This document shows, piece after piece, positions 1-12,918 of a DNA stretch of 64,000 nucleotides (positions are counted from its first letter, which is position 1; each line of letters opens with the position of its first letter). The position numbers and the translations under genes were made by a program. This stretch comes from Natribaculum breve. Its GTDB lineage: Archaea; Halobacteriota; Halobacteria; Halobacteriales; Natrialbaceae. Where the stretch lies: positions 1,488,001 to 1,552,000 of the forward strand of contig NZ_CP095390.1 in NCBI RefSeq assembly GCF_023008585.1, written 5' to 3'. Under the pieces are notes generated by a model. It made no database searches, was not told where the DNA came from, and saw only the letters and a list, made by a program, of their open reading frames with translations.

Positions 1-943
1 CCTGGTGGGTCCACAGGCGTTCGCCCGTCTCGAGGTCCATCGCCAGCGTCCCGGCGCTGTTGCGGTTCGGTCCCGGGCGGACGGAGCCGTCGAAGTCGGG
101 GCCGGGGTTGCCCACGGGGAGGTACAGCCGGCCCTTCTCGGCGTCGATCGTCGCGGTCATCCAGTTCGTCGCACACGACTGTTCGATGCTGTCGCCGACC
201 CACTCCTCTTCGGGCGAGGTCCAGGTGTGCCAGAGCTGTTCGCCGGTCTCGGTGTCGAGCGCGGTGTGGAAGCCGCGAACGCCGTACTCGCCGCCGGCGC
301 TGCCGGTGAACAGTTTGCCGTCGTAGACGACGGGTGCCCACGTCGCCGAGTAACCTTCCTCGTGGTCGGCGGTGCTCGTGTACCACTCCTCCTCGCCTGT
401 GTAGCGGTTCAGCGCGACGACGCCCGAGTCGAGCGTCGTCATGAACACCTTGTCGCCGAGGACGGCGACGCCGCGATTGTTGTCGTCACAGCAAAGCACC
501 ACGTCGGAGGGGACCGCGTAGGTGTAACTCCAGAGCGTCTCGCCCTCGCGGGCGTCGATGGCTTTCACGTGGTTCGGCCCGTTCGACTGGTACATCACCG
601 GCGGATCGCCCGGGACGATCAGCGGCGTCCCCTCCATGCTCGAGCCGGCACCGACGTGCATCACGTACTCGAGTTCGAGGTCGGCGACGTTGTCGGGGGT
701 GATGACGTCGGCGGTCGTACAGCGGTGCTGTTCGTAGTTCCCCCCGTAGGTGAGCCACGCTTCCGGGTTCTCACCCGACTCGAGGATCATCTCCTGGGTG
801 ACGTCCACCTCCGGAATCCGGTCGACGTCGTGCTGGTGTGTCACCGATTCGTCGGGCGAGCCGAGTACCCGATACCCCTGGTCTGTTTCCCGTACGATCG
901 TGTCCTGTGCGGCCTTGACGGCCCTGTCTTCTTCGATTCCCAT
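1..943 (-). CDS. PQQ-dependent alcohol dehydrogenase-like quinoprotein (partial)
   Basis: The reading frame runs off the left window edge, so only about 314 N-terminal residues are visible. They read as a beta-propeller quinoprotein dehydrogenase: W-x-T-Y-G-G near residue 60, 'SNGPNHVKAID', 'LWSYTY', and a vicinal cysteine pair followed by NRG (LCCDDNNRGVAV, about residue 150), which in PQQ dehydrogenases forms a disulfide next to the cofactor. The ATG at 943 is preceded by GAGGTGA about 6 bases upstream, inside the tail of the preceding gene. Only 6 bases separate it from that gene, so the two are probably one operon. I see no signal peptide, although the family is normally exported. Substrate cannot be told from this fragment. 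Confidence 0.75.
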   Translation of the reverse strand, partial: MGIEEDRAVKAAQDTIVRETDQGYRVLGSPDESVTHQHDVDRIPEVDVTQEMILESGENPEAWLTYGGNYEQHRCTTADVITPDNVADLELEYVMHVGAGSSMEGTPLIVPGDPPVMYQSNGPNHVKAIDAREGETLWSYTYAVPSDVVLCCDDNNRGVAVLGDKVFMTTLDSGVVALNRYTGEEEWYTSTADHEEGYSATWAPVVYDGKLFTGSAGGEYGVRGFHTALDTETGEQLWHTWTSPEEEWVGDSIEQSCATNWMTATIDAEKGRLYLPVGNPGPDFDGSVRPGPNRNSAGTLAMDLETGERLWTHQ

Positions 944-2053: not shown

Positions 2054-4216
2054 ATGGGAACGAACGCCCTGGAACTGGTGGTCGAGTCCGCTCGAGGACG
2101 GGTCGAGGAGGGAACGGCCGTCCTCGATCGCGACGCGAGACGGGAACTGGGGGTCGAGGTCGGCGACTGGGTGCTCCTCGAGGGCGACGATCGACGGGCC
2201 GTCGCGAGAGTCGGCGCTGGCGACGCCGAACGCGGTCGCGTCCGCTTCCCGGAGCGACTCCGTCGGAACCTCGGGGTCGCAGTCGACGACCGCGTCGCGG
2301 TCGACGCCGTCGACGTGACCGACGCGGATCGAGTTACGATCGCCCTGCCCGAGGACGTCGGCGTCGAGGACGGCGTCGGACTGCACGTCAGGGACGCCCT
2401 CGTCGGACGGGGCGTCGTCGACGGCCAGGTGCTCTCGGTCGCGCTCGGCTACGGCTCGCTGCCAGCGGAGGCGAGCCGCCAGGTACCGGTCCGGGTGACG
2501 GGGACCGACTCGAACGGTCCCGCGGTCGTCCGCGACTGGACGGCCATCTCTGTCGACGAGGAACCCGCGACGGGGCTCACGGACGAGCCGGCGGACCGAT
2601 CGGCAGTCACCTACGCGGACGTCGGCGGCCTCGAGGCGGAACTCGAGCGAGTGCGCGAGCTGATCGAGCTCCCTCTTCAGCACCCGGGCCTGTTCGACGC
2701 GCTCGGCGTCGATCCGCCCTCGGGCGTCCTGCTCTACGGCCCGCCGGGCACCGGCAAGACGCTGATGGCCCGCGCCGTCGCCAACGAGATCGACGCCCAC
2801 TTCCAGACGATCTCGGGGCCGGAGATCACGTCGAAGTACTACGGCGAGAGCGAACAGCGCCTCCGGGAGGTCTTCGCGGAGGCCGAGGCGAACGCGCCGG
2901 CGGTCGTCTTCGTCGACGAACTCGACTCCATCGCGCCGACGCGGGACGGGTCCGGCGGCGAGGCCGAGAGCCGGATCGTCGCCCAGTTGCTCTCGCTGCT
3001 CGACGGCGTGCGAGACCGAAAACGCGTCGCCGTCGTCGGGACGACCAACCGGGAACACGTCGTCGACCCCGCGTTGCGCCGCCCCGGCCGGTTCGACCGC
3101 GAGGTGGAGGTCGGCGTTCCCGACGCGCAGGGCCGCGAGGAGATCCTCCGGATCCACACCCGAGACGTGCCACTGGCCGACGACGTCGACCTCGAGCGCT
3201 ACGCCGAGATCACCCACGGGTTCGTCGGGGCCGACCTCGAGCACCTCGTCAGGGAGAGTGCGATGAGCGCGCTTCGACGGGTGCGTCCCGACGACGACCT
3301 CGAGGTGACGCCGGGAGACGTCGCCGACGTCGACCTCGAGGTGACGGATCGAGACGTCCGGGACGCGCTCACGGGCGTCGAACCCTCGGCGTTGCGCGAG
3401 GTGTTCGTCGAGGTGCCGGACGTCTCGTGGGACGACGTCGGCGGTCTCGAGGACGTGAAACGACGGCTGCGTCAGACCGTCCAGTGGCCCCTCGAGCACC
3501 CCGACGCGTACGAGCGGGTCGACCTCTCGCCCGCGAAGGGCGTGTTGCTCTACGGCCCGCCCGGCACGGGCAAGACGCTGCTCGCCAAGGCGGTCGCGAA
3601 CGAGGCCCAGTCGAACTTCATCTCGATCAAGGGGCCGGAGCTACTGAACAGGTTCGTCGGCGAGTCCGAACGGGGCGTTCGCGAGGTCTTCTCGAAGGCC
3701 CGCGAGAACGCGCCGACGGTGGTCTTCTTCGACGAGATCGACGCGCTGGCGGGAGAACGCGGTCGCAGCGCAGCCGACTCGGGGGTCGGCGAGCGCGTCG
3801 TCTCGCAACTGCTGACCGAACTCGACGGCCTCGAGACCCTCGAGGACGTCGTCGTCGTCGCGACGACCAATCGCCCCGACCTCCTCGACGACGCCTTGCT
3901 CCGGTCGGGTCGGTTCGACCGACACGTCCACGTGCCGGTTCCGGACGAGGAGGCTCGGCTGGCGATCTTCGAGGTGCACACCGCAGCCAAGCCCCTGGCC
4001 GCTGACGTCGACCTCGAGCGACTGGCGGGCGAGACCGACGGCTACGTCGGCGCGGACGTCGAGGCGATCTGTCGCGAGGCCGCGACGGCGGCCGTCGAGG
4101 AGTACGTCACCGACGCGCGGAACCTCGAGGACCTCGTGCTCACTGCGGCCCACTTCGAACGAGCACTCGAGGTGGTCGAACCGACGACGGCGGGCGACGC
4201 CAGGTTCGATACTTAG
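2054..4216 (+). CDS. CDC48/VCP-like double AAA ATPase
   Basis: A 720-residue AAA+ protein of the CDC48 (VAT) type, an ATP-driven unfoldase acting in protein quality control, often with the proteasome. The N-terminal part (1-190) looks like the double-psi barrel and 4-alpha-beta N domain. Two AAA modules follow, with Walker A GPPGTGKT at about 229 and 502, Walker B VVFVDELDSIAP and VVFFDEIDAL, and arginine-finger regions RRPGRFDRE and RSGRFDRH. The first Walker B carries DEL rather than the usual DEI. The ATG at 2054 fits a TATA box about 27 bases upstream; an in-frame ATG at 1880 would put the promoter inside the gene. Haloarchaea often carry several paralogs, so this may not be the main one. 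Confidence 0.93.
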   Translation: MGTNALELVVESARGRVEEGTAVLDRDARRELGVEVGDWVLLEGDDRRAVARVGAGDAERGRVRFPERLRRNLGVAVDDRVAVDAVDVTDADRVTIALPEDVGVEDGVGLHVRDALVGRGVVDGQVLSVALGYGSLPAEASRQVPVRVTGTDSNGPAVVRDWTAISVDEEPATGLTDEPADRSAVTYADVGGLEAELERVRELIELPLQHPGLFDALGVDPPSGVLLYGPPGTGKTLMARAVANEIDAHFQTISGPEITSKYYGESEQRLREVFAEAEANAPAVVFVDELDSIAPTRDGSGGEAESRIVAQLLSLLDGVRDRKRVAVVGTTNREHVVDPALRRPGRFDREVEVGVPDAQGREEILRIHTRDVPLADDVDLERYAEITHGFVGADLEHLVRESAMSALRRVRPDDDLEVTPGDVADVDLEVTDRDVRDALTGVEPSALREVFVEVPDVSWDDVGGLEDVKRRLRQTVQWPLEHPDAYERVDLSPAKGVLLYGPPGTGKTLLAKAVANEAQSNFISIKGPELLNRFVGESERGVREVFSKARENAPTVVFFDEIDALAGERGRSAADSGVGERVVSQLLTELDGLETLEDVVVVATTNRPDLLDDALLRSGRFDRHVHVPVPDEEARLAIFEVHTAAKPLAADVDLERLAGETDGYVGADVEAICREAATAAVEEYVTDARNLEDLVLTAAHFERALEVVEPTTAGDARFDT

Positions 4217-4296: not shown

Positions 4297-4638
4297 CTAT
4301 GTTTCCCGCCAGTCGGGTTGCTCGCGCGGCGGTGCGAGCACGCCGATCCCGATCGCGGGTTCGTCGGACCGGTTCTCGGCACCGTGGCGTTCCCCGCTCG
4401 GGAACCGGTAGCAGTCGCCGGACGAGAGCGTGACCTCCTCGCCCTCGACCAGCGCGACCAGCGTCCCGTCGAGGACGTAGCCGATCTGCTCGTTGTCGTG
4501 GCGGTGTACGGGCAGCGTCGCGCCGGACTCGATCCGCCAGTACTTCACGCAGGCCCGCCGCCCGGTCGCCAGGTCGGCGAGGTACACCCCCTCTGCGACC
4601 TCGTCGAACGTCGTGTCCCCGATACTTACCCTGTCCAT
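4297..4638 (-). CDS. Cupin-domain protein
   Basis: A 113-residue single-domain cupin. Motif 1 is seen as PVHRHDNEQIGYVLDG (about residues 43-58) and motif 2 as SSGDCYRFPSGERHG (about 72-86), giving His, His, Glu/Gln and His as likely metal ligands. The ATG at 4638 was preferred over a GTG at 4668 because a TATA box (TTTTTATATG on the minus strand, 4674-4683) places the transcript start between them. It is divergent from the binding-protein operon starting at 4732 and may belong to the same system, as an enzyme on the transported compound or as a small sensor. Substrate unknown. Confidence 0.75.
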   Translation of the reverse strand: MDRVSIGDTTFDEVAEGVYLADLATGRRACVKYWRIESGATLPVHRHDNEQIGYVLDGTLVALVEGEEVTLSSGDCYRFPSGERHGAENRSDEPAIGIGVLAPPREQPDWRET

Positions 4639-4672
4639 GGTAGCATACCTCACTATCGCCCTGTCCACGACG

Positions 4673-4731: not shown

Positions 4732-5628
4732 ATGGCAGAGAATGCCTCACTCAGATTGTTTCACCTCCCGTTCTCGTTCGTCCTCCCGCAGCGGGTGGCG
4801 GCCGAGCGGGGCTACTTCGAGGCGGAGGGACTCGAGGTCGACCTGGTCGAGCGCGACCGGCGATCCGTCGAGGTAAAGTACATTCCCACAGAGGAGACGC
4901 TGACCGGCGACTACGAGGTCGACATCTACCCGGTGTGCAAGTGGGAGAGCCTCAGGCGAACGTGGCGGATGGACGACGGTCGAGTCGTCGCGAACGGCAC
5001 CTTCGCCGACCAGCCGTACACGGTGTTCACCCGCCCGGAGACGTCGATCGAGTCGCCGGCGGACCTCGCGGACGTCCCGGTCGCCGTCAACCGACGAACC
5101 GGCCAGGAGTACACCGCGATGCGGGCGCTCGAGGAGCACGTCGACCCCGAGGAGGTACGCCTCGTCCACTACGGGATGCCGACCGATCGCCTGCGGGCGC
5201 TCCGGGACGGCGAGGTCGACGCCGTGACGCTGCTCGATCCACAGAGCACGCTCGCGGAGTCCCTCGGCTTCCAGCCGATCCTCGAGTTCGAGAACCACGT
5301 GGGGATCGTCGGCGGCGACGACGTCGATCGCGACGTCCTCGAGTCGTACGTCGCCGCCTACACGCGCGCCGCTCGCGACGTCAACGAGAACCCCGAGGCG
5401 TTCCGCGAGGAGTACCTCGAGATGCTCGAGAAGGACCTCCGGGTCGCACCCGACCTCTTCGAGGACGTGGACGTGGCAAAACTGCGCGAGCGGGTGACGG
5501 TCCCGCGCTACGAGGTGCCGAAGCCCGCCGACCGGGACGACCTCGGCGCGCAACTCGAGTGGATGAAAGACCGCGACCTCATCGACGACGAGGCGGACCT
5601 CGACGCCATCGTCGCTTCGCTCGGGTGA
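4732..5628 (+). CDS. Cytosolic substrate-binding-protein-like (NMT1/THI5-type) protein 1
   Basis: A 298-residue protein with the type-II periplasmic-binding-protein layout of the NMT1/THI5/SsuA superfamily: PQRVAAERGYFEAEGLEVDLVE at the N-terminus, SPADLADVPVAVN (about 105-117) and a C-terminal helical part. It starts directly with the fold (MAENASLRLFHLPFSF): no Tat or Sec signal and no lipobox, so it should stay in the cytoplasm. Its first half is more divergent than in the paralog at 6632. It heads a tight run of four genes (gaps of 5, 5 and minus 4 bases). It has no cysteine cluster like the CCCFC of yeast Thi5, so Thi5 chemistry is not supported. It may be an enzyme, a ligand sensor or a binding component. 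Confidence 0.7.
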   Translation: MAENASLRLFHLPFSFVLPQRVAAERGYFEAEGLEVDLVERDRRSVEVKYIPTEETLTGDYEVDIYPVCKWESLRRTWRMDDGRVVANGTFADQPYTVFTRPETSIESPADLADVPVAVNRRTGQEYTAMRALEEHVDPEEVRLVHYGMPTDRLRALRDGEVDAVTLLDPQSTLAESLGFQPILEFENHVGIVGGDDVDRDVLESYVAAYTRAARDVNENPEAFREEYLEMLEKDLRVAPDLFEDVDVAKLRERVTVPRYEVPKPADRDDLGAQLEWMKDRDLIDDEADLDAIVASLG

Positions 5629-5633
5629 GTCCC

Positions 5634-6626
5634 ATGGAGGCAGTCGATCTCGAGACCCAGCAGACCGAACTGGACGCCCACCACGACGACCCGGGAGACC
5701 GGCCCGTGTTGCGAGCGCGATTCGAGCACAACGGCAGCCCCCGGTACGTGCTGTACACGATCAAGCGGTTCGGGTACGACCACGATCACGACTTTCACCT
5801 CGACGTGCGACTCGTCTCCGACGAACTCGAGGGCGGGGTCGAGACCGTCGAGGCGAAGTTACAGGGAGGCGAGGCCGACCTCATCGACATCGACTACATC
5901 TCGACGGCGCGCGAGCGGGCCGAGGGCGCGCCGATCGTCGCCGTCCACCCGTACGGCCGGACGGTCGGAGGGCTCGTCGCGCCGACGGACTCGCCGCTCG
6001 AGGACCTGACGGACCTGCCGGGCCGGCGCATCGGCGTCGTCCGCCGGCTGGACAAAAACTGGATCCTGGTTCGCGCAGCGTGTCGCGAGTACCACGGTTT
6101 CGACCCCGACGACGAGGCGACGCCGGTCGAGTCGGGCTCGAAGGTCGAACTCACCCGCATGCTCCGAGACGGGGAAGTCGACGCGATCCTCCAGTTCTGG
6201 CCCATCGTCCCCGAGATCACCGAGACGGGCGACTACCACGAGGTGCTCCCGATGTCCCGGCTCGTCCAGGACCTCTCGGAGACCGACCGGAAGCTGCCGA
6301 TCTCGACGTTCCTCACGAGCGAGGACTACCTCGCGGAGAACCCCGACGCAGTTCGCGGGTTCACGGGCGCGTACCGCGACGCCGTCGAACGGCTCACGAC
6401 CGACGACGAGATCTGGACGGAGATCGGCGAGCGACTGATGTACGAGGACGACCCCGCCGTCGTCCGCGCCGTCCGCGACGGCTGGCGGGACATGGTCGTC
6501 GCCGACTGGGACGAGGAGACGGTCGCCGGGATGGAACGGCTGTTCGACCACCTGCTCGAGGTCGCGGGAGCCGACGCCCTCGGCGTCGACCACATCCCCG
6601 AGGACACGTTCCGCCTGGAGCTCTGA
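5634..6626 (+). CDS. Cytosolic substrate-binding-protein-like protein 2
   Basis: A 330-residue protein of the same binding-protein superfamily but the most divergent of the set. Family hallmarks are YVLYTIKRFGY near residue 38, LQGGEADLIDIDYIS (about 75-89), SPLEDLTDLPGRRIGVV (about 118-134) and LRDGEVDAILQFWP (about 178-191). The N-terminus is hydrophilic (MEAVDLETQQTEL), with no export signal. The ATG lies 5 bases after the previous stop, and the next start is 5 bases after its stop, so translation is probably coupled. The function of a signal-less binding-protein fold inside an operon of such proteins is not known to me. Confidence 0.65.
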   Translation: MEAVDLETQQTELDAHHDDPGDRPVLRARFEHNGSPRYVLYTIKRFGYDHDHDFHLDVRLVSDELEGGVETVEAKLQGGEADLIDIDYISTARERAEGAPIVAVHPYGRTVGGLVAPTDSPLEDLTDLPGRRIGVVRRLDKNWILVRAACREYHGFDPDDEATPVESGSKVELTRMLRDGEVDAILQFWPIVPEITETGDYHEVLPMSRLVQDLSETDRKLPISTFLTSEDYLAENPDAVRGFTGAYRDAVERLTTDDEIWTEIGERLMYEDDPAVVRAVRDGWRDMVVADWDEETVAGMERLFDHLLEVAGADALGVDHIPEDTFRLEL

Positions 6627-6631
6627 TCGCC

Positions 6632-7603
6632 GTGGAATCGATCACCTTCCAGCTCAACTGGGAACCCAACGGCTTCCAGGCCCCGTACTTCCTCGCACGC
6701 GAGCGAGGCTTCTACGACGAGGAGGGACTCGAGGTCGAGTTCGTCGAGGGACACGGCTCGCCGTTCGCCGCCGAGCAAGCCGCTCGAGGCGCGGCCACGT
6801 TCGCGCTCGCGGGTGCAAGCGCCGTCCTCTCCGTACAGAGCCGGGGACTCGAACCGCTGGCCGTCGCGGCGGTCACGGCGAAAACGCCAGCGGCGATCTA
6901 CACGCTGCGGGACGTCTTCGGCGAACCGCTCGAGCGGCCCGACGACCTCGCCGGCCGGACCGTCGCCCCCTCGGCGACGAAGACGCGCATCCTCGCGGCC
7001 CAGTTGCTCGAGGACGCCGGAATTCGCGACGAGGTCGACCTCCGGGACGTCGACCCCCACACCCACCACCGCGTCGAGCACCAGCTGCTCGACGGGGACG
7101 TCGACGCGGCGGTCGGCGTCGTCACCAACGGCCTCGAACTCGAGCGCGACCACGACCGGCCGGCGGACGAACTCCCGGTCGGGGAGCACCTGGGCGTCTA
7201 CGGGATGACCCTCGTGACGAACCCGGCGTTCGCGGCCGACGCTCCCGAGACGGTGCGGGCGTTCCTCCGTGCCACCGCCCGTGGCTGGGCTGCGGCGTCG
7301 AGAGAACCGGAGGCCGCCGTCGACGCGCTGGTCTCTCGCAACGCCACGCTCGAGCGCCGTCGGGCGATCGAACGCGAGAAGTTCGAGACGGCCGCCCGCG
7401 ACCTCCAGGTCACCCCGCACGTCGCGGAGACGGGGTGGGGGAACCACGACGGCGACCGCTGGCGACGGCTCGGCGAGACGCTCGCGGAGACCGACCTGCT
7501 CGAGGGCGAGATCGATCCGGACGCCGCCTGGACGAACGAGTACCTCGACGTGGACGCGCCGGCGATCCGCGACTACGCCGAGCGCGCGGGGCGGTGGCGA
7601 TGA
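6632..7603 (+). CDS. Cytosolic substrate-binding-protein-like (NMT1/THI5-type) protein 3
   Basis: A 323-residue NMT1/THI5-type protein starting with the core fold: ITFQLNWEPNGFQAPYFLAR then RGFYDEEGLEVEFVEG. It closely resembles the exported lipoprotein at 8124, for example VRAFLRATARG and LLEGEIDPDAAWTNEYLD against VLEGDVDPNAVWTNEFLD, but lacks a signal peptide and lipobox. The start is a GTG at 6632; the upstream frame is the arginine-rich shadow of the previous gene. Its stop overlaps the next ATG (ATGA). It contains no cysteine at all, which argues against a Thi5-type HMP-phosphate synthase. Probable role: binding the same ligand in the cytosol, or an unknown conversion. Confidence 0.72.
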   Translation: MESITFQLNWEPNGFQAPYFLARERGFYDEEGLEVEFVEGHGSPFAAEQAARGAATFALAGASAVLSVQSRGLEPLAVAAVTAKTPAAIYTLRDVFGEPLERPDDLAGRTVAPSATKTRILAAQLLEDAGIRDEVDLRDVDPHTHHRVEHQLLDGDVDAAVGVVTNGLELERDHDRPADELPVGEHLGVYGMTLVTNPAFAADAPETVRAFLRATARGWAAASREPEAAVDALVSRNATLERRRAIEREKFETAARDLQVTPHVAETGWGNHDGDRWRRLGETLAETDLLEGEIDPDAAWTNEYLDVDAPAIRDYAERAGRWR

Positions 7604-8031
7604 CCGCACGCGCCGTCGATCACGTGAACGTCGACGTCGACGACCTCGAGGCGTGCTACGAGTTCTACCGGGACGTCCTCGGACTGTCGTTGCTGCGCCC
7701 ACCGGAGGACTTCCAGGGCGAACACGCCATGTTCGAGGTCGGCGAGACCGTCGTGACGCTCGTCGAGACGGGCCGCGCCGACGGGTGGTCGCCCGCGGAC
7801 CTCGAGCACCCCCTCGACAAGGGCCACCTCGCGTTCGAGACCTCGCGCGAGCGCTACGACGAGTTCGTCGACGACCTCGACGGCCAGTTCCCGAAGCAGG
7901 GACCGTACGACTGGGGCGAGTTCGAGGGCTTCTACTTCCTCGACCCCGACGGCAACCTCCTCGAGGTGGTGACGTACGATCCGCCGCGAGCGGAGCGCGA
8001 CCGGCCGTTGCTCACGCACGACGACGTCTGA
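7600..8031 (+). CDS. VOC superfamily (glyoxalase/extradiol dioxygenase-like) protein
   Basis: A 143-residue vicinal-oxygen-chelate protein with two beta-alpha-beta-beta-beta modules. DHVNVDVDDLEACYEFYRDV (residues 7-26) opens the first; GHLAFETSRERYDEFV and FYFLDPDGNLLEVVTYDP make the second. His8, the His of GHLAF and the Glu of LLEVV are the expected metal ligands. Its ATG overlaps the stop of the preceding binding-protein-like gene, so the two are translationally coupled. This puts a likely metal enzyme into the same operon and suggests the ligand is chemically altered in the cell. Lyase, isomerase and dioxygenase activities all occur in this superfamily. Confidence 0.85.
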   Translation: MTARAVDHVNVDVDDLEACYEFYRDVLGLSLLRPPEDFQGEHAMFEVGETVVTLVETGRADGWSPADLEHPLDKGHLAFETSRERYDEFVDDLDGQFPKQGPYDWGEFEGFYFLDPDGNLLEVVTYDPPRAERDRPLLTHDDV

Positions 8032-8123: not shown

Positions 8124-9242
8124 GTGACACGCATTCACACGGGTCGTGGGGCGGCGCGCAACACGCGCCGGGGATTTCTGGCGGTCGCCGGCGGAGTCGC
8201 CGTCGCCGGCTGTACCGGGGGGTTCGGGAACGACAGCGAGCCGGCCGGCGCGGACGACGGGTCGGGGGACGGCTCGGGGGACAGACCCGAAGTCGAGTCC
8301 GTGTCCCTGTTGCTCAACTGGAACGTAAGCGCCCTCCACGCGCCGTACGTCGCGGCCGACGAGAACGGCTTCTACGAGGAGGAAGGCTTCGACGACGTCG
8401 AGATCGAGAGCGGCGACGGCTCCGACTTCGCGGCCAACCAGGCGGGACTCGGCAACGTCGAGTTCGCAATCTCGAGCAGCGACCAGCTCCTCAACGTCAA
8501 CAGTCGGGGGCTCTCGCCGCTCGCGGTCGGCATCGTCATGCAACGGAATCCGAACGTCGTCTTCGCCAGCCGCGAGCAGTTCGGCGAACTGACCGACGCC
8601 GAGCAGTTAGACGGTGCCACGGTCGGGAGCGGCCCCGGCATGGTCCGCCAGATGACGCGGGCGTTTCTCGACCACCACGGGGTCCTCGAGAGCGTCGAGT
8701 ACGTCGACACCGGGTTCGACACCGTCCAGCAACTGCTCGGTGGCGAGATCGACGCCGCGGGGGGCGTCTTCGGCGACGTCGTCGACGCCGAACACCAGGG
8801 TGGCGAGATCGACGTCCTCCCGATCGCGGACGCGATCCCGTCGTACGGCCACCTCGTGGTCACCGAGGAGGACTTCGGCGATGCGAACCCGAACACCGTC
8901 CGGGCGTTCCTCCGGGCGACGGCCAGGGGTGCCGTCTGGGCGAGCCAGAACCCGGACGAGGCGATCGACCTCCTCGTCGACGCCCAGCCCGAACTCGAGG
9001 AGGTCCGCGAGAACCAGGCCGACAAGTGGGACGTCATGCACGGCGAGTACATGACCTCGGAGACGGTGCGCGAGAACGGCTGGGGGTTCAGCGCCGCCGA
9101 CCCGTGGGAACGAACGCACGAGGTGCTGGCCGACGGCGACGTCCTCGAGGGCGACGTCGACCCGAACGCCGTGTGGACGAACGAATTCCTCGACGCGGAG
9201 TACGAGTACGTCGCCGACTACGCGGAACTGGCCGAAGAATGA
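8124..9242 (+). CDS. ABC transporter substrate-binding lipoprotein (NMT1/THI5-type, Tat-exported)
   Basis: A 372-residue binding protein for an ABC importer of the nitrate/sulfonate/HMP-precursor type. The N-terminus has a Tat motif NTRRGFLAVAGG followed by lipobox AVAGC, then an acidic glycine-serine linker and the mature domain from about residue 55 (VSLLLNWNVSALHAPYVAAD). It should be lipid-anchored outside the membrane. The GTG start at 8124 is favoured because the TATA box at 8085 would lie inside a longer gene. It is followed by a permease gene 49 bases on. The cytosolic paralog at 6632 is very similar over the C-terminal half, so both probably see related ligands; the ligand itself is not identifiable. 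Confidence 0.88.
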   Translation: MTRIHTGRGAARNTRRGFLAVAGGVAVAGCTGGFGNDSEPAGADDGSGDGSGDRPEVESVSLLLNWNVSALHAPYVAADENGFYEEEGFDDVEIESGDGSDFAANQAGLGNVEFAISSSDQLLNVNSRGLSPLAVGIVMQRNPNVVFASREQFGELTDAEQLDGATVGSGPGMVRQMTRAFLDHHGVLESVEYVDTGFDTVQQLLGGEIDAAGGVFGDVVDAEHQGGEIDVLPIADAIPSYGHLVVTEEDFGDANPNTVRAFLRATARGAVWASQNPDEAIDLLVDAQPELEEVRENQADKWDVMHGEYMTSETVRENGWGFSAADPWERTHEVLADGDVLEGDVDPNAVWTNEFLDAEYEYVADYAELAEE

Positions 9243-9291: not shown

Positions 9292-10125
9292 ATGAGCGAC
9301 GGACGCGGTGACCGACACGGTCGACCGCGCGTGAACGTTCCCTCGCTCGGCCGACGGGAGGGACGGAGCGTCGCCGACGTCGGTCTCGACGCGACGAGTC
9401 GTGCGCTTCCGCCGGTCGCCGTCCTCGCGGTCGTCCTCCTCGGGTGGCACGCCGCCGTCGTGGTCTCCGACGTGCCGACGCTGATCCTCCCGTCGCCGCT
9501 CGAGGTCCTCCAGGCGCTCACCGAGACGTACCCGACGCTGCTCGAGGACGCCGCGGTCACGGGGCTCACCGCGGGCCTCGGACTGCTCGCCGGCGGGACG
9601 GTCGGGTTCGTCCTCGCCTTCGCGATGACCTACTCGCGGACCGCGACGCGGACGCTGTTGCCCTACGTCGTCGCGTTGCGCATCGCCCCCCTGATCGCCG
9701 TCGCCCCGCTCCTGTTTCTCTGGTTCGGCCGGGGCGTGCTGGCCCGGGCGCTGCTCGTGACGACGCTGACTGTCTTCCCGATCACGATCGCCGCGGTCGA
9801 CGGACTTCGGAGCACGCCGGAGTCGTACCTCGACCTCGCGCGCACCGTCGGCGCGTCGCGGGCCGCCGTCTTCCTGCGCGTGCGCGTCCCCGCCGCCGCG
9901 CCGAGCGTGTTCGCCGGGTTCAAGATCGCCGCGACGCTTTCCGTCGTCGGGACCGTCGTCGCGGAGTTCGTCACGCTCGAGGCGGGTCTCGGTTACCGGG
10001 TGTTCGACACCGCGGCGTACCTCCGGACGGCCGAGACCTACGCCGCCCTCGTCGTCCTCGCGGGACTCGGCGTGGGCTTTTACCTCCTCCCCGTCGCCGT
10101 CGAACGCGCGTTCTGGCGGGCGTAA
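9292..10125 (+). CDS. ABC transporter permease (SsuC/TauC-like) 1
   Basis: A 277-residue inner-membrane permease of the BPD-transport family with about six hydrophobic helices (for example LPPVAVLAVVLLGWHAAVVV and the C-terminal VVLAGLGVGFYLLPVAV). The EAA loop that contacts the ATPase is seen as YLDLARTVGASRAAVFLRVRVPAAAPSVF (about residues 180-208). It follows the exported binding protein and ends 4 bases from the end of the second, oppositely oriented permease gene. Only one ATPase gene is present, so the two permeases may form a heterodimer or serve alternative importers. Confidence 0.87.
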   Translation: MSDGRGDRHGRPRVNVPSLGRREGRSVADVGLDATSRALPPVAVLAVVLLGWHAAVVVSDVPTLILPSPLEVLQALTETYPTLLEDAAVTGLTAGLGLLAGGTVGFVLAFAMTYSRTATRTLLPYVVALRIAPLIAVAPLLFLWFGRGVLARALLVTTLTVFPITIAAVDGLRSTPESYLDLARTVGASRAAVFLRVRVPAAAPSVFAGFKIAATLSVVGTVVAEFVTLEAGLGYRVFDTAAYLRTAETYAALVVLAGLGVGFYLLPVAVERAFWRA

Positions 10126-10129
10126 GGGA

Positions 10130-10909
10130 TCACTCGAACTCGAGACCCACCCACCGGAGGACGCCGCGCTGTGCGAGCACGACGACGCCGTAGAGGGCGA
10201 GTCCCTCGAGCAACAGGACGACGAGCGCCGCGAGCATGACCTCGGGACGGACGTTCTCCGACCCCAGGAGGATAATGAATCCGAGGCCGTCGTCCGCGAC
10301 GACCCACTCGGCGACGACGGCCCCGACGACCGCGAGCGTCACCGACTGCTTGAGTCCCGCGAAGACGTCCGGCAGGGCGTAGGGGACGTCCACGTACGCG
10401 ATCCGCTCGAGCGTGCTGGCGTTCACCGACCGCAACAGGTCGTGGTGCTCCGCCGGTGCCCGGTCGAGTCCCGCCGCCGTGCTCAACACGAGCGGGAAGA
10501 ACGTGACGAGCGCGACGAACACCGTCGCCGTCGTCGTCCCCGTCCCCAGGTAGATCAGAAGCAGCGGCGCGATCGCGAGTTTCGGCACCACCCTGACCGT
10601 CACGAGCGAGGGGTAGATCGCCCGTCGAAACCACGGGACGTACGCGACGAACGCCGCCAGCAGGAATCCCGCGAGGACGCCCACGACACCCCCGTAGACG
10701 ACCTTCTCGAGCGTGTCCCAGGCGTTGTGTGCGTACAGCGTCGGATTCCCCAGGAGCTGGGCGGCGACGGCCCGCGGCGACGGCAACACGAACGACGGAA
10801 CGTCCGCGAACGTCACGATCGTCCACCAGAGCGCGATGCCCACACAGAGCGCGCTCGCCGGGTAGAGCACGTCCGCCGCGGCGGCGCGAACGCGTTCACT
10901 CGTGGCCAT
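10130..10909 (-). CDS. ABC transporter permease (SsuC/TauC-like) 2
   Basis: A 259-residue permease of the same family as the neighbour at 9292. Hydrophobic helices include VLYPASALCVGIALWWTIV near the N-terminus and a C-terminal segment before WVGLEFE. The coupling loop is HHDLLRSVNASTLERIAYVDVPYALPDVFAG (about residues 155-185). The ATG at 10909 overlaps the end of the ATPase gene by 14 bases, so the leftward order regulator, ATPase, permease looks like one operon. Confidence 0.87.
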   Translation of the reverse strand: MATSERVRAAAADVLYPASALCVGIALWWTIVTFADVPSFVLPSPRAVAAQLLGNPTLYAHNAWDTLEKVVYGGVVGVLAGFLLAAFVAYVPWFRRAIYPSLVTVRVVPKLAIAPLLLIYLGTGTTTATVFVALVTFFPLVLSTAAGLDRAPAEHHDLLRSVNASTLERIAYVDVPYALPDVFAGLKQSVTLAVVGAVVAEWVVADDGLGFIILLGSENVRPEVMLAALVVLLLEGLALYGVVVLAQRGVLRWVGLEFE

Positions 10910-11645
10910 GGGTTTCGTGTAACGTCCGTCGCACCGCGGCGACCTGGCGCTGGAACGCGCCCGAGCCGAACACTTCCTCGTCGCGCGGCGTCGGCAGGTC
11001 GACCTCGAACGTTCGCTGGATCCGTCCCGGCTGTCCGCCCATCACGACGCAGCGGTCGGCGAGGAACACCGCCTCGGGGACGCTGTGGGTGACGAACACG
11101 ACGGTCTTCCGTTCGCGCCGCCAGAGCGCTCTGATCTCGACGCCGAGTTCGTCGCGGGTGATCTCGTCGAGTTCGCCGAACGGTTCGTCCATCAGGAGGA
11201 CGTCCGCGCCGAGGTGGATGGCGCGGGCGATCGCGACGCGCTGTTTCATCCCGCCGGACAGCGCCTGCGGGCGCGCGTCCTCGAACCCCTCGAGCCCCAT
11301 CGACGCGAGCAACGCCCGCGCCCGCTCTCGCTCCGGCGGGTCGTCGGCCATCGTCCGGAGGAACACCACGTTCTCGAGTGCGCTCTTCCACGGCAACAGG
11401 GTGTGTTGCTGGAAGACGAACCCGACGTCGGCGTTCGCCTGGGCGACGTCGGGTGGCCGCCCGTCGATGCAGACGGTCCCGGTCGTCGGCTCCTGCAGTC
11501 CGGCGATCGTACGCAGGAGCGTCGTCTTTCCGCAGCCAGACGGGCCGACCACGGTGACGAACTCGTCTCCGCCGACGCGGAGGTCGACGTCCGCGATCGC
11601 GGTGAAGTCCTCGAACGCCACCGTGACGTCGTCGAGTTCGATCAT
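10896..11645 (-). CDS. ABC transporter ATP-binding protein (SsuB/TauB-like)
   Basis: A 249-residue ATPase subunit for the adjacent permeases. Walker A GPSGCGKTTLLRT (about 38-50), Q-loop FVFQQHTLLPWKS, signature LSGGMKQRVAIARAI, Walker B VLLMDEPFGELDE and switch His in FVTHSVPEAVFLADR are all present. The ATG overlaps the stop of the upstream regulator gene (ATGA), showing coupling. A much longer upstream frame is an arginine-rich shadow and was not used. Confidence 0.93.
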   Translation of the reverse strand: MIELDDVTVAFEDFTAIADVDLRVGGDEFVTVVGPSGCGKTTLLRTIAGLQEPTTGTVCIDGRPPDVAQANADVGFVFQQHTLLPWKSALENVVFLRTMADDPPERERARALLASMGLEGFEDARPQALSGGMKQRVAIARAIHLGADVLLMDEPFGELDEITRDELGVEIRALWRRERKTVVFVTHSVPEAVFLADRCVVMGGQPGRIQRTFEVDLPTPRDEEVFGSGAFQRQVAAVRRTLHETHGHE

Positions 11646-12892
11646 TCGTCGAGCAGTCGCCCCTGTCCGAGCGCGATTCGGAGTCGATCCCACATCTCCT
11701 GGCGCTGCCACCCCCAGCCGCGTTCGCGCATGGCGTCGCTCTCGCCGAATCTCGAGGCCGCCCGCTCGAACGTCCGGCGGATCGACGCCGGCTCGTCGTC
11801 GCCCACCGCGGCGACCCGTTCTGCGGCCGGCTCCGGGTCGCATCGCGCGTCGGCCCAGCCGGCCGTCGTTCCGGCGAGAAAGCCCGCGAGCGCCGCGGTC
11901 CGATCCGCGAGGACGTCCTCGCGAACGATCACCGTCGGCCCGTAGATGGGGAAGTGATCCGTGATAGGGAGCGTGTCGACCGTTCTCCCCTGCCGCTCGA
12001 GCTGTCGCGGATCGGTGATCGACCCGGTCACGACGTCCGCCTCGCCCGCGAGCAGCGCGTCCTGTTCCTCGCCGGTCGTATCGACGATTCGGATGTCGTC
12101 GGCGAACGCCGTCTGCGAGAGAAAGAGCCGACCGAGCACCCGCGTCTCGGAGTTCGGCGGCATGCCGATCCGCCGCCCTTGCAGTTGCTCGACGCTCCGC
12201 AGCGGCTCGCCGAACGCCTCGCGGACGGTGTAGAGGACGGTCATCGCCCGCTGGTAGAGGACCGCGATCGGAACGACCGGGACGTCCGTCGCCCGGGCAC
12301 GGGCGACCGTCGCAGCGCCGACGACGCCGACGTCCGCGTCGCCGGCGGTGACCCGCTCGAGGGCGCGTCGCGACCCCTCGTAGTGGTCGACGGTCACGTC
12401 GACGCCGAACTCGTCGTACCACCCCGCCGTCTCACCGGCGTAGACGGGGACGTGGAGCCCGTTCGGCCGCCAGTTCAACGCGACGGTGAGGTCGCCGGCC
12501 GTCGACCCGGAACGGCCATCCTCGATCCCCGCGTGCTCGACAGCCCGGTCGAGCAACTCCTCCGCGTGGCGTTCGTACGCACAGCGGACGGCCGACTCGG
12601 GGTCGCCGACGGGTCGCCACGCCGTCGGCGGGCGACCGGGATCGTCGTCTCGAACGTGCGTGCGCTCGAGCAGTCCGGCGGACTCGAGTCGCTCGACGGC
12701 GTCGACGACAGTCGCCCGGTTCAGCCGGGTCCCGATCCGGAGGTGGACGGTCGTCGCCGGTTCGCGCTCGCGGTCGGCACGCAACAGCAGGTACGCGAGG
12801 ACCCGGCCGGCGTCGGTCCCGAGCCCGGCCGCCAGCCGCTCGACGACGTCCTCGTCCTCGTCGTCGAGTGCCCAGAAGGTTCGCGTGCGCAT
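11642..12892 (-). CDS. Winged-helix DNA-binding domain fused to NMT1/THI5-type binding-protein domain: putative ligand-sensing regulator
   Basis: A 416-residue two-domain protein. Residues 1 to about 85 read as a winged helix: DEDVVERLAAGLGTDAGRVLAYLLLRAD, then IGTRLNRATVVDAVERLESAGLLERTHV, typical of TrmB/MarR-like archaeal regulators. From about residue 135 a full binding-protein fold follows (LTVALNWRPNGLHVPVYAGE, AGWYDEFGVDVTVD, AFGEPLRSVEQLQGRRIGMP, ITDHFPIYGPTVIV). No export signal is present, so the ligand would be sensed in the cytoplasm. It is first in the operon with the ATPase and permease 2, and its TATA-like CCTTATGC lies about 27-35 bases before the ATG at 12892. The inferred role is one-component control of the uptake locus by its own substrate. 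Confidence 0.8.
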   Translation of the reverse strand: MRTRTFWALDDEDEDVVERLAAGLGTDAGRVLAYLLLRADREREPATTVHLRIGTRLNRATVVDAVERLESAGLLERTHVRDDDPGRPPTAWRPVGDPESAVRCAYERHAEELLDRAVEHAGIEDGRSGSTAGDLTVALNWRPNGLHVPVYAGETAGWYDEFGVDVTVDHYEGSRRALERVTAGDADVGVVGAATVARARATDVPVVPIAVLYQRAMTVLYTVREAFGEPLRSVEQLQGRRIGMPPNSETRVLGRLFLSQTAFADDIRIVDTTGEEQDALLAGEADVVTGSITDPRQLERQGRTVDTLPITDHFPIYGPTVIVREDVLADRTAALAGFLAGTTAGWADARCDPEPAAERVAAVGDDEPASIRRTFERAASRFGESDAMRERGWGWQRQEMWDRLRIALGQGRLLDE

Positions 12893-12918
12893 TCGTCCCA
12901 ACCCTCTATGTGCTATCG

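Follow-up and report, generated by a model that had tools for sequence, protein, structure and literature searches.

Why three consecutive genes should encode proteins of a fold that normally works outside the membrane, each without a recognizable export signal, is the question raised by a locus of the haloarchaeon Natribaculum breve. The locus lies in the window, the whole stretch of 64,000 nucleotides that was analysed (contig NZ_CP095390.1, positions 1,488,001 to 1,552,000 of the forward strand; coordinates below are those of the window). A preliminary description had noted three successive open reading frames with the periplasmic binding protein (PBP) fold of the NMT1/THI5 type, translationally packed with a VOC gene. 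The Pfam NMT1 search confirmed the fold in all three products, which scored 43.5 (P1), 48.1 (P2) and 119 bits (P3) at a cut-off of 20.5, and the packing was borne out by gaps of 5 nucleotides between P1 and P2 and between P2 and P3 and by a 4-nucleotide overlap of P3 with the VOC gene in the sequence ATGA. With about even confidence, we propose that P1 to P3 are cytosolic PBP-fold proteins that serve one intracellular quinoprotein system based on pyrroloquinoline quinone (PQQ); their ligand binding is predicted. The three genes are the following.

4732 to 5628, plus strand: P1, PBP-fold protein, putatively cytosolic, from a Cys/Sec family (C69-K70-W71), with an NMT1 match, an AlphaFold 2 (AF2) model and an invariant Cys
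5634 to 6626, plus strand: P2, signal-less relative of PqqT (D140-K141-N142-W143, F188-W189), with a match to PDB entries 9b1u and 9b1v
6632 to 7603, plus strand: P3, signal-less paralogue of the importer lipoprotein encoded at 8124 to 9242 (40% identity), with an NMT1 match

The best solved relatives of P2 were 9b1u, 9b1v and 9ooz, which are titled in the PDB as PqqT with PQQ (expectation value [E] of 9.9e-26, residues 39 to 325). In excerpts of two papers, PqqT is a periplasmic protein that binds PQQ with a dissociation constant of 50 nM (PMC12124388, PMC12828617), and its residue K142 was exchanged (K142D) to make an artificial lanthanum-binding (lanthanide) protein (PMC12828617). If the offset of 27 derived for the 9b1u numbering is correct, K142 is the Lys of LDKNW in the segment LDKNWIL shared by both proteins. 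The motifs DKNW and FW were invariant in the 39 haloarchaeal P2 proteins; the full LDKNW was present in 37 of them and its Lys in all 39. Bacterial relatives were sampled from plasmids as 12 of the 184 records with a match, taken at one to three per genus and not at random, one of them being unannotated. All 11 annotated relatives of this sample lay amid genes for PQQ dehydrogenases or PQQ accessory functions: PQQ dehydrogenases in nine, pqqABCDE with a quinoprotein carrier gene in one (Ruegeria) and a quinoprotein carrier gene alone in one (Sagittula). From homology and gene linkage, P2 most likely carries PQQ for a dehydrogenase that likewise lacks an export signal. It was classified as a signal-less relative of PqqT and not as PqqT, because none of the 39 P2 proteins has a signal for export to the periplasm.

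The genome set comprised 242 genomes of the class Halobacteria. P1 (at least 60% identity) was found in 34 of them, at 36 places, and P2 in exactly these 34 genomes; eight further genomes held only a distant relative of P1. P2 was positioned immediately 3' of P1 at 35 of the 36 loci by our own gene calling, and a similarity match supplied it at the 36th (L111). P3 was called at 33 of these module loci and a divergent cupin gene at 34, with a 35th cupin (L107) known from annotation; a VOC gene was located in the stretch read at 33 loci, with an adjacency that was not constant. A PQQ-dependent alcohol dehydrogenase (PQQ-ADH, at E of 1e-20) was present in 33 of the 34 genomes with P2 versus 8 of the 208 without it (Fisher p = 6e-32, with relatedness ignored). 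In the window, this enzyme is F6, encoded next to a conserved partner.

1 to 943, minus strand: F6, PQQ-dependent alcohol dehydrogenase of 572 amino acids without a signal peptide (PF01011, 194.7 bits); its C-terminal end lies before the start of the window and was read in stretch L077
950 to 1801, minus strand: F5, conserved partner gene of F6, with no Pfam match at E of 0.01

PedH and XoxF-type enzymes were the best solved relatives of F6 in the PDB. Alignment with them revealed that the vicinal Cys pair and the GGE, GNP and D-x-D (WDYD) elements, which we take to be PQQ and metal ligands, are kept in F6, and that an Arg of both PedH and XoxF (DRNG) is replaced by Lys. The 15 module-linked F6 copies all had the Cys pair, GGE and WDYD, and 13 had GNP. 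The D-x-D motif is taken as a sign of lanthanide dependence in an excerpt of PMC11996626. A hydropathy and twin-arginine scan detected no signal peptide in any of the 15 copies, five of which lack the fold motif and were scored over the 40 residues after each start. By eye, 25 of 26 further PQQ-ADH copies from the class (L189 to L214) had no signal either, the exception being L198, where one follows a long extension. To our knowledge, PQQ enzymes are periplasmic, membrane-bound or secreted. No haloarchaeal cytosolic PQQ dehydrogenase was found among the listed titles and abstract openings of the open-licence literature on archaea and PQQ; an excerpt on Haloferax volcanii places PQQ proteins among down-regulated pathways, and an excerpt of a second paper deals with a bacterial enzyme only. 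One genus-level group (L104, L106, L108 and L109) has a tandem duplication of P2 inside the module and an F5 N terminus in which DRRQFLK precedes a run of hydrophobic residues, resembling a twin-arginine translocation (Tat) signal; this N terminus is cut short in L108 and was not seen elsewhere.

Searches for PQQ biosynthesis genes revealed pqqC in 0 of the 242 genomes, in a search that does match in a Ruegeria plasmid, and pqqE in 0 of 242 at E of 1e-60, a weak negative because that search had no positive control. PQQ synthesis is probably lacking in these haloarchaea, a conclusion that is carried by the pqqC result and not by that for pqqE.

The absence of export signals from the triad, as claimed in the preliminary description, was analysed in 36 P1, 39 P2 and 33 P3 proteins (108 in total, the window's own copies included). 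Every in-frame ATG or GTG upstream of the fold was considered in a simple hydropathy and twin-arginine scan, which is not a trained signal predictor, and segments of fewer than 15 residues were left unscored as too short for a signal. No hydrophobic core was detected upstream of the fold in any P1, P2 or P3 protein from any of these starts, so the claim held, and upstream starts that would add signal peptides were not found. As a control, five exported relatives, including the lipoprotein of the window, were scanned; the twin arginine was recovered in all five and the hydrophobic core in four. Twin-arginine matches in the upstream frame occurred in one P1 (the window's own), two P2 and one P3 protein, none of them with a hydrophobic core. 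Fewer than 20 residues were available before the fold in 25 of the 36 P1 and 19 of the 33 P3 proteins and in no P2. By eye, bacterial relatives of P1 also start straight at the fold, and three aligned bacterial relatives of P2 carry N-terminal extensions resembling signal peptides, whereas P2 does not. From these sequences, P1 to P3 look cytosolic by design.

P1 carries a Cys in the motif xCxW, which reads YPICKW or YPVCKW in haloarchaea and mostly YRACEW in bacteria. This Cys is present in all 36 haloarchaeal members, and C69 is the sole Cys of P1 in the window. Bacterial relatives were collected by a scan of 84,980 species genomes with two patterns, which yielded 43 loci; because one of the patterns includes the Cys, some of these loci carry it by construction. 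The Cys was in frame at 35 of the 43. Only the Cys-free pattern EPW[LI]TVAE matched at 33 loci, of which 26 have [YF][RN]ACEW (frameshifted in L164) and seven have a TGA. Frameshifted copies of P1 relatives were seen at L164 and L172 (Komarekiella and Nocardiopsis records). The seven TGA codons, all in Rokubacteria (L165 to L171), lie in frame exactly at the Cys codon and are followed by more than 230 open codons. SelB scored above the cut-off in all seven TGA genomes (in two pieces in one of them) versus none of the four Cys-form genomes tested. Among codons for conserved residues, 9 of 12 after the TGA were identical in all seven loci versus 32 of 129 elsewhere (p = 8e-4, for a range chosen post hoc). 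This conserved stretch holds CCGCC-GGGT-GGCGG, a possible hairpin of a selenocysteine insertion sequence (SECIS). The folding energies of four single stretches were not significant (z of 0.43, 0.17, -1.76 and 0.18), and support for a SECIS element therefore comes from the hairpin sequence and the codon invariance. The TGA probably encodes selenocysteine (Sec), giving a UEC motif.

Positions at which Cys and Sec replace each other are usually catalytic or redox-active. Since its Cys is conserved and is replaced by an in-frame TGA in SelB-bearing genomes, P1 is most likely an enzyme. The AF2 model of P1, built from 26 sequences, revealed a PBP fold (predicted TM score 0.83) with SsuA as the nearest structure by Z score; ThiY, PqqT, Thi5 and DszB also matched. 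The Cys is located in the model at the end of a strand that leads into a helix, which would place it where the ligand loops of PBPs lie, in the cleft. Most of the P1-family records seen are annotated as transport proteins, and the bacterial loci have several unrelated sets of neighbouring genes. Three distant haloarchaeal relatives (L114, L115 and L116, about 26 to 28% identity) adjoin, by eye, genes for an ATP-binding cassette (ABC) ATPase, a permease and a separate receptor.

P3 had been described as very similar to the exported lipoprotein encoded at 8124. It is clearly a paralogue of that protein, at the 40% identity given above, for which "very similar" is too strong; its identity to the adjacent winged-helix/NMT1 protein is 32%. 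Because of these two identities, P3, the lipoprotein and the regulator probably see related ligands, and P3 looks like a version of the importer's receptor that stays in the cytosol. Five of the eight NMT1 matches in the 4.35-Mb genome fall in this cluster (P1, P2, P3, the lipoprotein and the fusion protein). The remaining genes of the cluster are listed here.

2054 to 4216, plus strand: CDC48-type AAA ATPase with two GPPGTGKT motifs, named from the annotation at the matching place in relatives
4297 to 4668, minus strand: divergent cupin, part of the module (PF07883)
7600 to 8031, plus strand: VOC (glyoxalase-fold) protein (PF00903), overlapping P3
8124 to 9242, plus strand: exported Tat lipoprotein, the substrate-binding protein of an ABC importer (NMT1, 120 bits; twin arginine and a lipobox-like Cys)
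9292 to 10125, plus strand: ABC permease (PF00528)
10130 to 10909, minus strand: ABC permease (PF00528)
10896 to 11645, minus strand: ABC ATPase (PF00005); the start is from our own gene calling, and the Pfam scan used one 30 bases further out
11642 to 12901, minus strand: winged-helix/NMT1 fusion, a likely ligand-sensing regulator (NMT1, 108.8 bits; MarR-type matches below the cut-off)

The fusion protein probably acts as a one-component regulator whose PBP domain is a sensor in the cytosol. The ABC set (lipoprotein, permeases, ATPase and winged-helix/NMT1 protein) was found whole or in part beside F5 and F6 at 6 of 10 further F6 loci; in some of these genomes P1 to P3 are located elsewhere or are absent. 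The CDC48-type ATPase family occurs at 8 of the 36 module loci and beside F5 and F6 in several genomes. Genes resembling sodium/calcium exchangers lie near the module at L070 and L071 (annotated) and at L080, L082, L083, L086, L090 and L107 (family F9, named by eye); they possibly serve the metal of the quinoprotein. A TATA-like stretch was noticed by eye upstream of P1.

In the proposed intracellular PQQ system, PQQ would have to be imported, since these haloarchaea probably do not synthesize it, and the adjacent ABC importer is a plausible route. P2 would be the cytosolic counterpart of periplasmic PqqT, binding PQQ and buffering it or handing it on, as homology and gene linkage suggest. F6, with its PQQ and lanthanide-type motifs and no signal found, would be loaded and folded inside the cell. 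P1 would be an enzyme that acts on the ligand, or on a product of it, through its Cys, which would serve as nucleophile or redox thiol. P3, by its paralogy, may retain the ligand site of the lipoprotein and serve as a cytosolic carrier of the same ligand. The preliminary proposal of a new enzyme or a ligand-buffering set fits this scheme in both its parts: the invariant Cys, with probable Sec in relatives, gives P1 the look of an enzyme, and P2 resembles a carrier of a cofactor.

Several observations weigh against this proposal. F6 lies inside the stretch read at only 15 of the 36 module loci. One genome (G037) has the module and no PQQ dehydrogenase by search or by Pfam; eight genomes with a PQQ-ADH match (only a fragment in G192) have no P2, even in a profile search; and no PQQ-ADH reaches 50% identity to F6, save a 52% piece in G162, in six genomes of the 33 (G032, G107, G150, G162, G190 and G202). 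No PQQ genes were noticed beside bacterial relatives of P1, although no search was aimed at them. The main rival is a module for the catabolism of an aldehyde, acid or sulfonate taken up by the cell, with PQQ-ADH as one step of the pathway. P1 would then be a DszB-like or other PBP-fold enzyme for the substrate, further steps would fall to the cupin and VOC proteins, oxidoreductases of the aldehyde:ferredoxin (AOR), formate dehydrogenase (FDH) or xanthine dehydrogenase (XDH) types would oxidise the products, and P2 might bind the substrate and not PQQ. AOR genes are present at 11 of the 36 module loci, an FDH-like family (named by eye) at 6 and an XDH-type gene beside the module in one plasmid. 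The nearest folds of P1 are SsuA and its relatives, with DszB at a Z score of 15.4; 19 of 26 P1 relatives match the SsuA model and 16 of 26 the taurine-binding model (E of 0.001); and bacterial relatives mostly lie amid ABC transporter genes (ATPase family at 30 of 45 loci), sometimes with UbiD, XDH or CaiB-like genes by eye. The AOR- and FDH-like neighbours, the SsuA- and taurine-type matches and G037 place this explanation first among the alternatives. It is nevertheless unlikely in our estimation, as P2 is specifically PqqT-like with LDKNW and its 11 annotated bacterial relatives track PQQ genes.

The other alternatives are less probable. Non-catalytic ligand buffers or sensors that feed the winged-helix/NMT1 regulator would suit a Cys-free P3 and an NMT1-domain regulator next door, but P1 has an invariant Cys with a TGA counterpart in relatives, a sign of catalysis, which makes this explanation improbable. 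The preliminary description had also named Thi5, which is a cytosolic enzyme, while remarking that its CCCFC motif is absent and that the third protein has no cysteine. Both remarks proved correct, since P1, P2 and P3 of the window have one, one and no Cys, respectively, and 29 of the 33 P3 proteins have none (the other four have one). Some matches would suit Thi5-like hydroxymethylpyrimidine (HMP) synthases or cytosolic binders of thiamine precursors and speak against the PQQ proposal: among solved structures P3 is closest to thiamine-type binders, with matches to 4nmy, ThiY and Thi5; ThiY and Thi5 also resemble P1 in fold; and P2 matches Thi5 weakly (E of 0.002). The lead was nonetheless left unsupported, and we consider it very improbable, because CCCFC is missing, the genome encodes ThiC and the enzyme that co-occurs with the module is a PQQ dehydrogenase. 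The least probable explanation, to which we give hardly any weight, is that P1 to P3 are ordinary transport proteins exported by piggyback or an unconventional route. A complete ABC importer, the usual client of PBP-fold proteins, does adjoin the triad; however, it already owns a lipoprotein, none of the 108 proteins scanned has a signal, and the bacterial relatives of P1 begin at the fold as well.

If the intracellular PQQ system is real, a cytosolic PQQ dehydrogenase served by binding proteins in the same compartment would represent another way of using the cofactor, and one found in Archaea. The P1 family, with members in cyanobacteria, actinobacteria, proteobacteria and haloarchaea, is a candidate family of enzymes, because its conserved Cys is probably Sec in Rokubacteria. 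A doubtful, more far-reaching extension is a wholly intracellular haloarchaeal PQQ economy (importer, PqqT-like carrier and lanthanide-type quinoprotein) in which P1 would found a Cys/Sec family of PBP-fold enzymes that modify, activate or recycle PQQ or a PQQ-like quinone.

Comparison of the triad with the Thi5 HMP synthase (PDB entries 4h65, 4h67, 4h6d and 4esx) revealed a common NMT1/THI5 fold; the triad differs in the missing CCCFC, the ThiC of the genome and its other gene partners. The desulfinase of 2'-hydroxybiphenyl-2-sulfinate, DszB (2de2, 2de3), resembles P1 in fold over 263 residues (root mean square deviation 4.1) and is a PBP-fold enzyme with a catalytic Cys. An excerpt of PMC12168087 gives Cys27 with His60, Arg70 and Gly73. 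Membership of P1 in the DszB family was rejected, as the active-site Cys is located elsewhere (residue 27 versus 69). In an excerpt of PMC13188914, SaoX and SaoB are predicted selenoprotein substrate-binding subunits with the motifs UxP and CUxxT. Sec in a protein of the ABC substrate-binding kind would be common to these and the Rokubacteria relatives of P1, which have UEC. P1 was rejected as SaoX (NF040735), since it scored 12.4 bits where 300 are required, and only 1 of 26 members matched at E of 0.001 (best E of 0.00061); SaoB (NF040727) matched no P1 member at E of 0.001. No Sec in the P1 family was found among the open-licence papers listed or in excerpts of PMC13188914 and PMC9312934, whole tables excepted.

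F6 shares its family, ligand elements and DYD with PedH and XoxF and differs in having no signal peptide. Marine heterotrophic Thaumarchaeota have PQQ dehydrogenases, some with DYD, of which 15 of 21 families carry signal peptides, and encode a PQQ synthase, according to an excerpt of PMC7300363. Archaeal origin and, in part, DYD are shared with F6, whereas no signal and no pqqC were found here. PqqT of Methylobacterium extorquens (9b1u, 9b1v) differs from P2 in that P2 has no signal peptide and lies between P1 and P3, with no permease and ATPase pair directly 3' of it; the two proteins share near full-length homology, LDKNW and linkage to PQQ enzymes.

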